The position numbers and the translations under genes are program-made. Below the pieces are notes generated by a model that searched no databases, was not told the origin of the DNA, and was given only the letters and a program-made list of their open reading frames with translations. Source: Candidatus Altarchaeum sp. (GTDB lineage: Archaea; Altiarchaeota; Altiarchaeia; Altiarchaeales; Altiarchaeaceae). Taken from it: a stretch of 13,219 nucleotides of DNA. This document shows, piece after piece, positions 2,330 through 13,215 of the stretch. Every line of letters starts with the position of its first letter. The first letter of the stretch is position 1. The stretch is from the NCBI GenBank assembly GCA_018260755.1, contig JAGTWP010000031.1, positions 2,946-16,164 of the forward strand, given 5' to 3'.

Positions 2330-2918
2330 GGGCATAAATAAATTTTTGGCAAGGGTTAAAGAGGAAAATTTTGTGTTTGTAATCCCAAATGAAAGATGTA
2401 GAAAGGCAATGGCAATAGCAATTACCGAAATGTCAAAGCGCAATAAAAATTTTGTAAATTTATTGAATCATACCTTTAGGGTTGCGAGTGTAAGTTTATA
2501 TCTGGCACAAAAGGAAAAACAAACCGCCGCAAGCAAAGAAATTTGTTTTTTGGCAGCAATCTTTCACGATGTTTTTAAGGAAGAAGAAAATCACGAAGTT
2601 ATGGGCGGGGACTTTGCGGAAAAAATTTTAAAATCGTTGAAATACAAGCCGGATGTTATTGAAAAAGTCGCAGAGAGTATTGCTTACCACAACAACAATG
2701 AGAAAATTTTACGCACAATTGAAGCAAAAATTTTATGGGATGCGGATAAATTAGATAAAGTAGGTGCAACAGCATTTTTGAGAAGAATGGATGAAAGAAA
2801 TTTAAAAAGCCGCCTTGAAAAGGATAAGAATGTATTTCTTTATCTGGATTTTTCAAAGGAAATTTATCGGAAAAGGACTGAACATACGAATGAATGTTTA
2901 GTGGTGCTAAAGAAGTAA
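2322..2918 (+). CDS. HD-domain phosphohydrolase, C-terminus probably truncated
   Basis: This is a predicted metal-dependent phosphohydrolase of the HD superfamily (YedJ/HDIG-like; substrate unknown). Visible metal ligands are H50 (LNHTFRVA), H82-D83 (AAIFHDVFK), H91 and H123 (IAYHNN), then the late acidic motif WDADKLDKVG (139-148). It overlaps bud32 by 8 bases, so the two are probably co-translated. An HD protein beside bud32 may point to nucleotide or tRNA-related turnover, but this is inference. Oddly, the final codons (2902-2918, encoding most of VVLKK and the stop) lie inside the left terminal repeat of a mini IS element. Related proteins usually end in a longer helix after the RTxTA-like segment, here RKRTEHTNE. 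The gene therefore seems to have lost its native 3' end and gained a stop from the element; activity may remain because all visible HD residues are present. Confidence 0.88.
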   Translation: MFEGINKFLARVKEENFVFVIPNERCRKAMAIAITEMSKRNKNFVNLLNHTFRVASVSLYLAQKEKQTAASKEICFLAAIFHDVFKEEENHEVMGGDFAEKILKSLKYKPDVIEKVAESIAYHNNNEKILRTIEAKILWDADKLDKVGATAFLRRMDERNLKSRLEKDKNVFLYLDFSKEIYRKRTEHTNECLVVLKK

Positions 2919-3111
2919 TGCTAAATTATACTGATAGATGAAATATTTAATAGCTCCAATGTGATTTTCAATTTTTTTAGTTTTTTCTAATTTGCATTCG
3001 GGATTACCAATTTCATCTTAATTTTATAGAAAAATATTTTTATTTATTTTTATAGAATCATAATTATAAATTGGAATTATTTGAAATAGCATTACTTGTT
3101 TATCATTACCA
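2902..3111 (-). mobile_element. 210-bp internally deleted IS1-family derivative (MITE-like, 'B-mini')
   Basis: The left end TGGTGCTAAAGAAGTAATGC is an imperfect inverted match to the right end ...GCATTACTTGTTTATCATTACCA, with GTAATGCTA in common. Bases 3017-3111 are 94/95 identical to 5985-6079, the 5' end of truncated element IS-B, including the region before its transposase start. On the minus strand, after a start codon at 3016-3014 (ATG, versus GTG in IS-B) and a few decayed codons, the sequence jumps to a frame ending at 2908 that reads IENHIGAIKYFIYQYN. This is the typical C-terminus of an IS1-family transposase. The element is thus both ends of an IS1-type transposon with the middle removed, unable to encode transposase but perhaps mobilisable in trans. 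No clear target duplication is visible. Confidence 0.8.
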
Positions 3112-3151
3112 AAAAATCTAATTAGTTAAACAAATACAAATTTAAAAAGAA

Positions 3152-3283: not shown

Positions 3284-3414
3284 ATTTGAATAAAAATTTA
3301 AAAATATACTGACCCGCCAGTGAAATTGGTAATTTTTTCATTAGAGTATTCTTAAAACTCATCGTAATAGTTACTTAAATTACCTAAAAATTACAAAAAA
3401 TACTTGCGGTTTAG

Positions 3415-3424
3415 TATATAAAAT
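3415..3424 (+). promoter_or_regulatory. TATA box for the prodomain-like gene
   Basis: TATATAAAAT lies with its centre about 30 bases before the ATG at 3449. Archaeal transcription starts roughly 25 bases after the TATA box, so the mRNA would be nearly leaderless. No Shine-Dalgarno site precedes the ATG, which agrees. The stretch 3284-3414 before it shows no gene. Confidence 0.55.
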
Positions 3425-4588: not shown

Positions 4589-4925
4589 AAGCCAGAGAGA
4601 TATATAGACTACTTGGAAAGATAAAAAAGAGAACACATTTTTCGTAGTATAATTATACTCAACAACCGCAAAAATTGCGCTTTTTTAACAGAGTATAATT
4701 GATTAGCGCTCGCACTTCAGAGGTCATCTAATCATCTTTAGATTTAAGTTTCTCTTTCAACTGCTTATGTTGTTCTTTTGTCAATTGGCACTGTATCAAA
4801 ATATAGTGATTTTTGGTTTTTAATTATATTCCAAAATTTATTCAACAATGCGCAGGCATTCGATTTTGATTTAAATTTTTTTGCACATGTTTATATCCAT
4901 CACTAGAATTAAATATTAAATTTTA
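4589..4925. other. Intergenic region with inverted repeats, left flank of IS-A
   Basis: No convincing gene is present. A minus-strand open frame at 4765-4890 (42 codons, ending FDTVPIDKRTT) might be a decayed protein end but is too short to support. AATTATACTC (4651-4660) is inverted at 4691-4700 around a hairpin, and TGATTAG (4700-4706) is inverted at 4728-4734. The rest of IS-B, expected here if IS-A had simply inserted into it, was not found, so a deletion must have occurred. Confidence 0.5.
4667..4686 (+). terminator. Hairpin plus T6, possible terminator
   Basis: CGCAA-AAA-TTGCG (4667-4679) forms a short perfect hairpin followed by C and six T. It lies about 80 bases after the lipoprotein stop and could end that mRNA. 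The stem is only 5 bp, so support is moderate at best. Confidence 0.35.
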
Positions 4926-5694
4926 GGGAGTGTTAACTATAGATATATTTAATGTTTGAATCCTAATTAAATATATGGAAACCGTATGTAAAAAATGTGG
5001 GGGCACAAAATGGGTAAAGAGCGGAAAAGTTCGCAATAAGCAGCGATACAATTGTAAGTTGTGTGGGTATAATTTTGTGCTTGGTGATGAAAGAGAAAAA
5101 GTTGGACAAGAAGGAAAGGCGTTGGCAGTTTTGTTGTATTCTGCGGGCAAATCAAGTTATGGGTTTATCGCGAAACTTTTTAATGTATCAAGACTGCAGT
5201 TTTGAAATGGATGAGATGTATGGGAAAAAGATTGCCAGAACCAAGTGTTGATAGTGAAATCAAAAAATTAAATAGATGAGATGTGGCATTTCCTCAATAA
5301 AAAAAACGAAAAATATGGGTCTGGAGAGCCTTGGATTGTAGTACAAACAAAACCATTGGATGGGTTATTGGCGATCGTTCTATTAAAACGGCTAAAAAAC
5401 TCTACGAAAAATTGAAACATTTAGATGCAGTATTTTATGTGGACGATTGGGATCCATACAAACAGATTTTTCCAAAAAATAAACTCGTGATAAGTAAAAA
5501 ACACACTACTCTCATAGAAAGTAACAATTCCAACATAAGGCATTTCTTGGCAAGAATGACAAGGAGGACAAAGGTTGTTTCAAGATCTGTAGAAATGGTT
5601 GATTTGACTTTAAGACTATGCTGGAATATAAATGAGAACAATATGTTTAGCACATTCCAAGATAAATTTTTATCTATCTTTGGTTAACACTCCC
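4926..5694 (+). mobile_element. Complete but decayed 769-bp IS1-family element (IS-A)
   Basis: The ends are GGGAGTGTTAAC (4926-4937) and GTTAACACTCCC (5683-5694). These are perfect 12-bp inverted repeats, extending to 18 of 20 matching bases. The 769-bp length equals that of classical IS1 elements, and the single encoded protein is an IS1-type transposase. Flanking 9-mers TAAATTTTA and ATATTTTTA agree at only 6 of 9 positions, so a target duplication is not clear. The right end falls inside the transposase frame of IS-B, showing that IS-A inserted after IS-B was in place. A mini-derivative of the same element lies at 12752-12834. Confidence 0.9.
4975..5687 (+). pseudogene. IS1-family transposase of IS-A, frameshifted
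   Basis: The ATG at 4975 starts a zinc ribbon (C5, C8, C27, C30; VCKKCGGTKW, NCKLCGYNF) and a helix-turn-helix (YGFIAKLFNVSR). The frame breaks at about 5191-5195 (one base missing), continues as VLKWMRCMGKRLPEPSVDSE, and breaks again near 5270 (most simply two bases missing). It then gives DEMWHFLNKK, the first catalytic Asp. At the A8C run (5299-5307) a third shift of -1 leads to WVWRALDCSTNKTIGWVIGD, YVDDWDPY (second Asp) and the IESNN motif (Glu) up to the stop, which sits inside the right terminal repeat. Repairing all shifts yields about 238 residues, normal for a one-gene IS1-family transposase. The first two breaks make it inactive; the third could be programmed. Confidence 0.88.
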
Positions 5695-5984
5695 ATATTT
5701 TTATCCCGAGATCTTCTGGCACCTGTTTATATTCCTTTGCAATGAAACCTAAAAGCCAAGGCAAACTTACGCCTGTTACTCTACATACACCTCGTAGAGC
5801 TATTCGCTCTAATAATAGCTTTTTGATCAAAGATCGTATTTCCTCTGAAACAACTTTTTTTTTCAATATCAAAAACAAATTCCCTTCCACAGACTTTACA
5901 CCTATAATTCTGTTTACCGTTGTGTATATGCCCATTTAGTTTTATATTTCCTGATCCACATTCAGGACAAATTATCAATTCCAC
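5695..5984 (-). pseudogene. IS1-family transposase of IS-B, N-terminal part, frameshifted
   Basis: A GTG start at 5984 gives a zinc ribbon (C6, C9, C29, C32: IICPECGSGNIKLNG and YRCKVCGREFVF). Within an A9 run (plus-strand T9 at 5855-5863) the frame must shift by +1 (one A too many) to continue as VVSEEIRSLIKKLLLERIAL and RGVCRVTGVSLPWLLGFI. That is the helix-turn-helix of InsA-like proteins, and it runs on to QVPEDLGIKI. The next codons come from the IS-A terminal repeat and end in a stop. The sequence differs clearly from IS-A's transposase, so these are two distinct IS1-family members. A -1 slip at the A run does not restore the frame, so the shift is probably a mutation. Confidence 0.85.
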
Positions 5985-6079
5985 CTTAATTTTATAGAAA
6001 AATATTTTTATTTATTTTTATAGAATCATAATTATAAATTGGAATTATTTAAAATAGCATTACTTGTTTATCATTACCA
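5985..6079. repeat. 95-bp direct repeat (second copy of 3017-3111)
   Basis: Bases 5985-6079 match 3017-3111 at 94 of 95 positions; the difference lies in ATTTAAAATAG versus ATTTGAAATAG. Both copies are IS-B 5' ends (terminal repeat plus transposase promoter/leader) in the same orientation, 2968 bases apart. The near-identity implies a recent common origin and makes the intervening DNA prone to excision by recombination. Confidence 0.93.
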
Positions 6080-6110
6080 TAAATTAATCCCCTGTATATA
6101 ATTACTAAAA

Positions 6111-6593
6111 ATGGAAACCGAGATAATCAGGATTGAAAAGCCAAAGGACTTGAACATGATACTCGGGCAGTCGCACTTCATAAAGACCGTCGAGGATTTG
6201 TATGAGGCGATTGTGTGCTGCGTGCCGGGGATAAAGTTCGGTTTGGCGTTCTGCGAGGCTTCTGGGCCCTGCCTTGTGCGCATCGCTGGAAATGACCAGG
6301 AACTTAAGAGATTAGCCGCAAAAAATGCCATGAAAATCGGTGCTGGGCATTGTTTCATAATATTTCTGAAAGACGCGTTCCCGATAAACATCCTAAACGC
6401 GGTTAAGAATACCCCCGAGGTGTGCCGCATTTTCTGCGCGACGGCAAACGACGTCGAGGTGGTCGTGGCTGAAACCGCGCTGGGGCGAGGAATACTCGGC
6501 GTGGTGGACGGCGCGAAACCGAATGGGATTGAGACCGAAAAGGATGCAAAAGAAAGAAGGGATTTCCTGAGAAATATCGGGTATAAATTGTGA
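6111..6593 (+). CDS. Adenosine-specific kinase family protein (PF04008/COG1839)
   Basis: The 160-residue protein fits this compact archaeal and bacterial family throughout. Its members have been described as adenosine-specific kinases, probably converting adenosine to AMP in the cytoplasm. Conserved blocks are [16 protein letters not shown] (18-33), [13 protein letters not shown] (40-52), [20 protein letters not shown] (75-94), [10 protein letters not shown] (104-113) and [14 protein letters not shown] (121-134). The length is full and both ends look natural. The gene is much richer in G+C (38 of 60 in 6421-6480) than the bulk of the window and ends 4 bases from the convergent rhomboid gene, which has the same composition. 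It begins only 32 bases from the end of IS-B. Transfer from a GC-richer genome is likely. There is no Shine-Dalgarno site; a TA-rich stretch around 6080-6100 may be the promoter. Confidence 0.92.
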
Positions 6594-6597
6594 TTTT

Positions 6598-7174
6598 TTA
6601 GTAACCAGCGCGTCCGCCAATTGAATTTTTCAGTTTGAGCCCGAAATATATCCCGGCCAAAAGCCCGCCTATGGCGCCCCTGCCATGCAGTTTCTGGCTG
6701 AAACGAGAGGATTACCATTACCCTGAATACCGCGATGTAAAGCGGTATCGGAAATGGAATCGGGAATACGAACATCTTGATGTTCGGCCGAAGTATCGCC
6801 ATGGTTGCCGCCACGGCAAATATCGCCCCCGATGCCCCGACAACCATCACATTCGGGTTTGCGATAAGCAAAAACAGCACGCTTCCTGCGATGCCGCCGA
6901 TGAAGTATATCTTTAAGAATTCGTATTCCCCGACAAGCCCCTCGAGGTATGTGCCCAAAAAGAAGAGCGCGATCATGTTGAACAATATGTGGCTGACACC
7001 GTCGTGCATGAAAATGCTCGTGATTAATGTCCACGGCTCGCCCATGAAGGAGCAGGGGCTCATGGCGAAGTTCTGGAAGAACCACCCCGGGGATATTAAC
7101 GTCAGAATGAACATTACAAAGTTCGCTATTATGAGATTCTCAACCGCCCCGAAGCCAAACAAACTTAACCTCAT
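6598..7174 (-). pseudogene. Rhomboid family intramembrane serine protease with a 2-bp frameshift
   Basis: Rhomboids cleave transmembrane substrates inside the lipid bilayer. From the ATG at 7174 the protein shows several hydrophobic helices, HILFN (H62 and N66, oxyanion-hole region), the active-site loop GASG (113-116, catalytic S115), and AWQGRH (163-168), which carries the catalytic His. Directly after H168 the frame is wrong. Adding two bases at about 6672-6674 (CCATATAGG instead of CCATAGG) gives IGGLLAGIYFGLKLKN and SIGGRAGY with a stop at 6598-6600. The repaired length is about 192 residues, normal for a 6-helix rhomboid. Without repair, translation runs on into unrelated sequence as far as 6074. 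The break may be a natural AT-dinucleotide loss or an assembly error. Composition is GC-rich, like the convergent kinase gene. Confidence 0.88.
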
Positions 7175-7432
7175 CTGAAATTACCTAATTTGCTTTGTTT
7201 TTCGAATGTGCTCAATATTAACGGGTAAGCCAAAGCGCATCGGTTTATGACCCATTTTTTTGTTCTGCCCACCAAAAAATTTCAGTGATGGATTTTTGCA
7301 TAGGGTTCGACACAATGCGATTTTTAGAAATAACCATTAAATGATTGCCCAAAAATTGTGTCAAAATTTGCTTTAAAAATCGCCATGCAACGACTTACCC
7401 CTCATTATTGAGCAAATACAAAAATCAGTTAT
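7175..7432. other. Divergent intergenic region with interleaved inverted repeats
   Basis: This 258-base gap separates the rhomboid start from the next plus-strand gene. It holds GACACAAT (7309-7316) with complement 7355-7362, and GCGATTTTTA (7317-7326) with complement 7374-7383. Because the arms alternate (A, B, A', B'), RNA from this region could form an H-type pseudoknot. An additional 11-bp perfect inverted repeat begins at 7408. Promoters for both genes must be here, but no clear TATA box stands out. Confidence 0.55.
7309..7383 (+). repeat. Two interleaved perfect inverted repeats (8 bp and 10 bp)
   Basis: Arm A is at 7309-7316, arm B at 7317-7326, A' at 7355-7362 and B' at 7374-7383; A and B are directly adjacent. 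All pairs are Watson-Crick without mismatch. The interleaving excludes two simple nested hairpins and fits a pseudoknot, or two alternative hairpins that exclude each other. Confidence 0.7.
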
Positions 7433-7440
7433 TTGCTCAA
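7408..7440 (+). repeat. 11-bp perfect inverted repeat at a start codon
   Basis: TTGAGCAAATA (7408-7418) and TATTTGCTCAA (7430-7440) are exact complements with an 11-base loop. The proposed TTG start (7433-7435) of the next gene lies in the right arm. The site could be an operator for a dimeric repressor or an RNA hairpin hiding the start. Confidence 0.75.
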
Positions 7441-7816
7441 TGTCCTGGATAAATATTTTGACCTGATTTCTCTCTCTGTTCGTAATGATATGCTTTTACA
7501 GATGATTGTGGCGAAAGATTTCGAAGTGGCGAAAATTATAAAGGAGCATTTAAAAGAAATTCAGGCGGAAATTTTGAATAAGGCATTCATTGAGTTGAGC
7601 GAGAGTGGAGAAATAATGGAAATTTTATATGATTATGATAAATCAGCATGCATTGATGAAAAGATGAAAGAAGATGCGTTAAGAAAATATGTTGAAGTTT
7701 GGTGGATAAATACGGATGTTGAAATTTTAAAGAAGTTTTTGGAAAGAGGAATACAAAATCAGGAATTAAGGCAGGATATTATTACTATATTGGAGGTAAA
7801 GCATAAAAATTCTTAA
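7433..7816 (+). CDS. Unknown helical protein
   Basis: The 127-residue frame opens after a stop at 7409-7411 and has no ATG near its beginning. I use TTG at 7433; the first ATG is about 20 codons later (before [10 protein letters not shown]). The predicted protein is soluble, rich in Leu, Ile, Glu and Lys, and almost all helical, with segments [40 protein letters not shown] and [19 protein letters not shown]. The spacing is reminiscent of HEAT/ARM-type repeats, without a clear match. It may be an N-terminally truncated relic of a larger repeat protein. Its last 4 bases overlap the 3' end of argG on the other strand. Composition is AT-rich like the host genes, unlike the GC-rich pair upstream. 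No function can be proposed. Confidence 0.55.
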
Positions 7817-10478: not shown

Positions 10479-10570
10479 TTTGATGTTTTGTTATTAAATT
10501 TTACTTTAATTTTATGCAAACTAATTATAATTTCAAAGAAAAATTATGAAAAGAAATATAAATTATAGAT

Positions 10571-10688
10571 AATACAAAAGCATGATACATAATACCTAAT
10601 ACAAAAGCATGATGCATAATACCTAATACAAAAGCATGATGCATAATACCTAATACAAAAGCATGATACATAATACCTAATACAAAAG
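10571..10688 (+). repeat. 27-bp tandem repeat, 4.4 copies, in a divergent promoter region
   Basis: Units start at 10571, 10598, 10625 and 10652, and a 10-base partial unit at 10679. Each reads AATACAAAAGCATGAT[A/G]CATAATACCT; the only variation is A in units 1 and 4 and G in units 2 and 3. The array is uninterrupted, so it is not a CRISPR (no spacers). It lies between rpl44e and dph6 and ends 25 bases before the dph6 start. Confidence 0.97.
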
Positions 10689-10696
10689 TATAATAC
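10689..10696 (+). promoter_or_regulatory. TATA-like box of dph6
   Basis: TATAATAC directly follows the last partial repeat, centred about 21 bases before the dph6 ATG. This is close to the spacing for an archaeal leaderless transcript, and no Shine-Dalgarno site is present. The tandem repeats then sit exactly where upstream regulator sites or the BRE element would be. Confidence 0.4.
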
Positions 10697-10713
10697 AAAA
10701 TTAAATTTTCAGA

Positions 10714-12751: not shown

Positions 12752-12834
12752 AGGAGTGTTAACCAAAAGATAGATGGCACACTTAAATCACTCATAAAAA
12801 CAATATGTTGTTCTATCTATAGTTTACACCTCCC
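12752..12834 (-). mobile_element. 83-bp mini-derivative of IS-A (MITE-like, 'A-mini')
   Basis: The left end AGGAGTGTTAACCAAAAGAT matches the reverse complement of the IS-A right end (GGGAGTGTTAACCAAAGATA) with one substitution and one extra A. The right end CTATAGTTTACACCTCCC matches the reverse complement of the IS-A left end (CTATAGTTAACACTCCC) with small changes. In between, about 40 bases include ACAATATGTT, also present near the IS-A right end (5639-5648). The element is therefore two IS-A ends with almost everything between them deleted, lying in the opposite orientation to the parent. The flanks are A/T-rich; no exact target duplication is seen. Confidence 0.75.
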
Positions 12835-13060: not shown

Positions 13061-13084
13061 CATGTAATATTTAATATTTAATAT

Positions 13085-13215
13085 CTAACTTTTATTATTT
13101 ATTTAATATTTATTTAAAATATTTATTTAATATTTAATATCTAACTTTTATTATTTATTTAATATCAAAATTTAATTATTTATTTAATATCTAACTTTTA
13201 TTATTTATTTAATAT
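13085..13215 (+). repeat. AT-only long repeats at the window end
   Basis: A 25-base unit beginning CTAACTTTTATTATTT and ending in TTAATAT occurs at 13085-13109, 13141-13165 and 13191-13215. The spacers of 31 and 25 bases consist of TTTATTTAATAT-like sequence. The block from 13061 on is nearly free of G. Its function is unknown; such arrays often stop assembly and may mark a contig edge. Confidence 0.85.

Follow-up and report, generated by a model that had tools for sequence, protein, structure and literature searches.

Downstream of an HD-domain gene in a Candidatus Altarchaeum genome lies a short segment bounded by inverted repeats. It raises two questions: whether it was made from the two ends of an IS1-family transposon, and whether it has moved. 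The window, by which we mean the whole stretch of 13,219 nucleotides that was analysed, is G000:C64:2946-16164. The host genome, G000, comprises 1.32 Mb in 78 contigs and is about 85% complete. It was compared with those of three congeners, the Candidatus Altarchaeum / Altiarchaeales MAGs G003, G002 and G001.

Limits and make-up of the mini-element

The pair of terminal inverted repeats (TIRs), matches to the TIR pattern and the end of homology in the upstream gene together delimit a miniature element (MITE) of 211 bp. The initial annotation had recognised the element itself but set it at 2902-3111, limits that are better given as 2900-3110. The relevant features are as follows.

2900..3110, minus strand (orientation of the parental transposase gene): complete mini-element, 211 bp
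3087..3110, minus strand: start-side TIR relative to the transposase, reading GGTAATGATAAACAAGTAATGCTA on this strand and matching the IS-B end at 6055-6078 without a difference
2900..2923, plus strand: TIR on the transposase-end side, AGTGGTGCTAAAGAAGTAATGCTA, matching the copies on G000:C42
2981..3110, minus strand: retained 5' part with TIR, leader and first transposase codons (..NPEC..); identity to IS-B 96% over 108 bp
2907..2978, minus strand: retained 3' part with C-terminal transposase codons KIENHIGAIKYFIYQYNLALLL and a TAG stop within the TIR, from tblastn and the L045/L046 alignment
2916..2918, plus strand: stop codon contributed by the terminal repeat of the element to the HD-domain gene upstream (2322-2918)
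5694..6078, minus strand: IS-B, 5' part of a parental-type IS1-family element, frameshifted and cut off at the start of IS-A
4925-5694: IS-A, a second IS1-family element, its transposase broken by an in-frame stop, adjoining the cut end of IS-B

The window copy retains both TIRs intact. Over 24 nt, the left repeat and the reverse complement of the right are identical at 19 positions, whereas none of 20,000 random 211-bp draws from the window reached 18 matches. Read on the minus strand, the copy shares 96% identity with the start of IS-B (5971-6078) over its first 108 bp, and comparison of bases 3003-3115 with 5971-6083 gives the same figure. Beyond this point the homology to IS-B, interrupted by a deletion of 4 nt, extends to the codons at the start of the transposase. 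The C-terminal codons, KIENHIGAIKYFIYQYNLALLL*, start about 20 bp past NPEC and their stop sits in the opposite TIR; the minus-strand reading of 2972-2925 is IENHIGAIKYFIYQYN. When an intact sibling transposase was used as a tblastn query, its residues 220-244 independently matched 2916-2990 with 72% identity (E 1.5e-5). The transposase core is thus absent and both transposase ends are kept, in agreement with the original proposal that the element derives from the two ends of an IS1-family transposon and retains C-terminal transposase codons.

That proposal also had the start of the IS-B transposase joined to the C-terminal frame. This holds for the codons '...NPEC' and 'KIENHIGAIKYFIYQYNLALLL*', which lie in a common frame. 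It does not hold for the apparent ATG (about 3016), which is out of frame with the C-terminal codons because a small deletion of 4 nt follows it and alters the reading frame; no start-to-stop fusion ORF is left in the window copy.

Sibling elements and the parent

Since IS-B comprises only the 5' half of an element, frameshifted and abutting IS-A, it cannot itself show the 3' end, and it was rejected as sole parent. We also rejected the idea that the mini-element and IS-B are two ends of one composite, as their outer flanks differ. Sibling ISs in two congeners, by contrast, have both ends present and in the same order as in the window copy. That on G003:C42 encodes an intact transposase of 246 aa (L045) with the C-terminus SFSKTIENHIGAIKYFIYHYN and a match to PF03400 (DDE_Tnp_IS1; E 7.6e-27), and that on G002:C180 measures 840 bp, has both TIRs and contains one stop codon. 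The L046 transposase was also found with the PF03400 model. Family membership was scored on the siblings because the mini-element no longer has the DDE_Tnp_IS1 domain.

Identity between IS-B and the L045 protein is about 52-63%, making these elements siblings rather than parents, and the search for an intact IS-B that the initial annotation had proposed produced nothing closer. The exact parent, a full-length element of IS-B type, was not found in 29 genomes of the phylum, and neither the parent nor further copies turned up in viral, phage and plasmid collections. Within this 85%-complete MAG there is no intact IS1 transposase, the sole PF03400 match being the broken IS-A. Since the two ends keep their order in the siblings, the mini-element is explained by the loss of a single internal stretch of roughly 0.6 kb. 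With the exact parent missing, this single-deletion model is well supported, if short of the direct demonstration that had been claimed for it.

The neighbourhood has other features. At 12753-12833 the window holds an 81-bp mini-element with IS-A ends, and ends of the same type bound 81 bp at G003:C57:5198-5278 and 80 bp at G001:C150:1048-1127. The region 6111-7180 contains an ORF with a G003 homologue (L034) and a rhomboid-like ORF; it is visibly higher in G+C than its surroundings and these ORFs were possibly acquired.

Related copies in the genome

The TIR pattern has 43 matches in the host genome compared with one in the reversed control, and 20 compared with none in G003; G001 and G002 have fewer. 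When convergent TIRs in the host genome are paired, about 15 complete elements emerge; they are 112-235 bp long and fall into three groups.

IS-remnant group: the 211-bp window copy, copies of 129 and 130 bp on C42, and one of 178 bp on C76
112-114-bp family: includes one 235-bp member, on C29, with another repeat nested inside
133-147-bp family: has relatives in G003, where a 151-bp family numbers five copies

The C76 copy keeps N-terminal zinc-ribbon codons of the transposase and represents an independent internal deletion. The initial annotation had looked to multiple copies at different loci as proof of mobility and allowed that its reading would weaken if the sequence occurred only here and no intact IS had both ends. 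The exact 211-bp form is indeed single in the assembly, but related short elements are found at many other loci and the congener ISs carry both ends. On contigs C13, C15, C40 and C48, a mini-element repeat lies no more than about 155 bp from the contig end, which suggests that these repeats broke the assembly there; the true copy number is therefore probably higher. The element is a MITE, mobile as a family.

Repeats of other kinds were also seen. At about 3305-3420 of the window is a multicopy repeat of ~115 bp with ends ACTgAcCCG/CGGTTTAGT and ATAT on its flanks, near copies of which lie on C48, C29 (nested in a 113-bp MITE), C27, C26 and C76. AT-rich intergenic tandem repeats have units of 27 bp at 10549-10701 and about 25 bp at 13068-13215.

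Target-site duplications and the insertion site

Across 27 elements, flank identity shows its clearest excess over the control at offset 8 (0.574 versus 0.461). Exact 8-bp duplications are present at C30, at G003:C9 and around the pair of copies on G000:C42, with a 7/8 flank match at four further elements. A clean duplication is missing at most copies; where preserved, it is of 8 bp. The IS1-type target duplication of 8-9 bp is therefore seen in the family but not at the window copy, where no duplication of 4-12 bp was found and the 8-bp flanks match at three of eight positions.

The left junction of the window copy is clean. The HD gene aligns with its counterparts in G003 and G002 until 2897-2901, where homology stops, and the element is absent from this site in both congeners. 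In the window, the final codons of the gene and its stop come from the left TIR; relatives end in ..NECLDVEK or similar. On the right the ancestral neighbour, which in G003 encodes 284 aa, has been displaced, and only its C-terminal part is left in the window at about 7433-7816. Since the DNA to the right of the copy is not this neighbour, the flank was rearranged. IS1 elements are known to cause deletions and other rearrangements next to them, and such an event beside the element would account for the missing duplication. We infer that the window copy lost its duplication later in this way.

Paired copies around a surface-protein gene

The two sister copies of about 130 bp on contig C42 (G000:C42:11903-14238 with their cargo; L154 3404-5739) are 98% identical to each other, have the same orientation and bound 2,077 bp. 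Between them lie a gene for a DUF7507 repeat surface protein, which contains a short run of N in the assembly, and a 3' gene fragment that, from its sequence, we take to be the end of a phosphoglucosamine-mutase gene. The insertion separates rpl24e from ndk, beside S28e and L7Ae; the assignment of rpl24e to ribosomal protein L24e was made by eye. Its outer flanks form an exact 8-bp duplication, AAAAGTAG, and when joined they align unbroken in all three congeners (83-89%), where the site is empty. A homologue of the cargo is found elsewhere in G003, with no TIR seen beside it.

It appears, then, that a pair of close sisters carried the surface-protein gene into a ribosomal-protein operon. The inner flanks of the pair share the 7 bp AAATATA; this would suggest capture via a circular or cointegrate intermediate, although so AT-rich a match may be due to chance. 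As a broader statement, we think it rather probable that in Altiarchaeota IS1-derived mini-elements, working in pairs as compound transposons, carry surface-protein genes of the host into conserved operons.

Origin and movement

Taken as a whole, the element is very probably a MITE that arose by one internal deletion from an IS1-family IS of ~840 bp, and moved in trans with 8-bp duplications. The parent would have been an insertion sequence of approximately 840 bp. A single deletion would have taken out its transposase core, with the HTH, the DDE domain and most of the zinc ribbon, so that some 130 bp remained at the 5' end and some 80 bp at the 3' end. An IS1-family transposase is predicted to bind the 24-nt TIRs and would act on them in trans, insertion producing target duplications of 8 bp. 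At the window copy, an IS1-type adjacent deletion, for instance, may have removed the duplication together with the first half of the next gene, and the two sisters on C42 appear to have jointly formed the ends of a compound transposon.

Might the window copy instead be a dead relic, a full-length IS1 that inserted here, lost its middle in place and never moved as a mini-element? The missing target duplication, the out-of-frame ATG and the single occurrence of the exact 211-bp form all fit such a history, which we regard as possible but on the unlikely side. Against it, the window copy has two intact TIRs, and two shorter, mutually near-identical sisters elsewhere carry the same 3' remnant and serve as functional ends with an exact duplication. 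This history is in any case compatible with a MITE origin, and differs only on whether the window copy itself jumped.

Recombination between two different IS copies, joining the left end of one to the right end of the other, would likewise leave no duplication and a non-ancestral right flank, and no intact IS was found to have exactly these two ends. Such a chimera is nevertheless improbable: on C42 the same two ends (left 86%, right 94% identical) are found joined at another point, so that both belong to one IS type. Finally, the sequence might be retained because it serves the host, for instance by giving the HD gene its 3' end and stop codon or as a regulatory RNA, with mobility incidental. 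The left TIR does complete the HD gene, but the congeners have this gene without the element and with different short tails, and there is no other sign of a role; we consider this explanation highly implausible. The internally deleted, trans-mobilised MITE is the reading that we carry forward.

Comparison with known systems

The findings add IS1-family MITEs to a poorly sampled archaeal phylum, and the C42 unit is a clear case of a gene moved by mini-elements in an archaeon that has not been cultivated, the site being empty in three relatives. Apart from these two points, this is an ordinary transposon case. Nothing relevant on IS1-derived archaeal MITEs or on Altiarchaeum transposons was found in the open-access literature, though an earlier report is possible. 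A 2024 review of prokaryotic MITEs lists few archaeal genera, and the passages found there mention no IS1 case.

Among archaea, MITEs have been described from Sulfolobus and a small number of others. The Sulfolobus MITEs SM1-SM4 have been reviewed (PMC10969869), and SMN1 and SM3A have been tied to ISC1733 and ISC1058, respectively (PMC3718332). Like SMN1 and SM3A, the elements described here are short, non-autonomous, multicopy and bounded by TIRs and, by analogy, would be mobilised in trans by a related IS. They differ in having IS1-family ends and transposase remnants, and in their altiarchaeotal host.

Tn6645 is bounded by ISAba3-like IS1-family elements with 24-bp TIRs starting GGTGGTG and 8-bp target duplications (PMC6382973). 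The elements here share that TIR length and start and that duplication length, and their siblings match DDE_Tnp_IS1; unlike IS1-family ISs, the mini-element has no transposase. TIR similarity to ISAba3 was rejected as proof of family, because the match of 15/24 is no better than at chance window positions, so that the resemblance rests on the TIR start and the duplication length.

Composite transposons bounded by MITEs or TIMEs are known in bacteria (PMC3934969; TIME-COMPs, PMC13367494, PMC4133298). The C42 unit resembles them in that two mini-element copies bound host genes moved as a unit, but it is archaeal and of IS1 type, and its cargo is a surface-protein gene rather than resistance genes.
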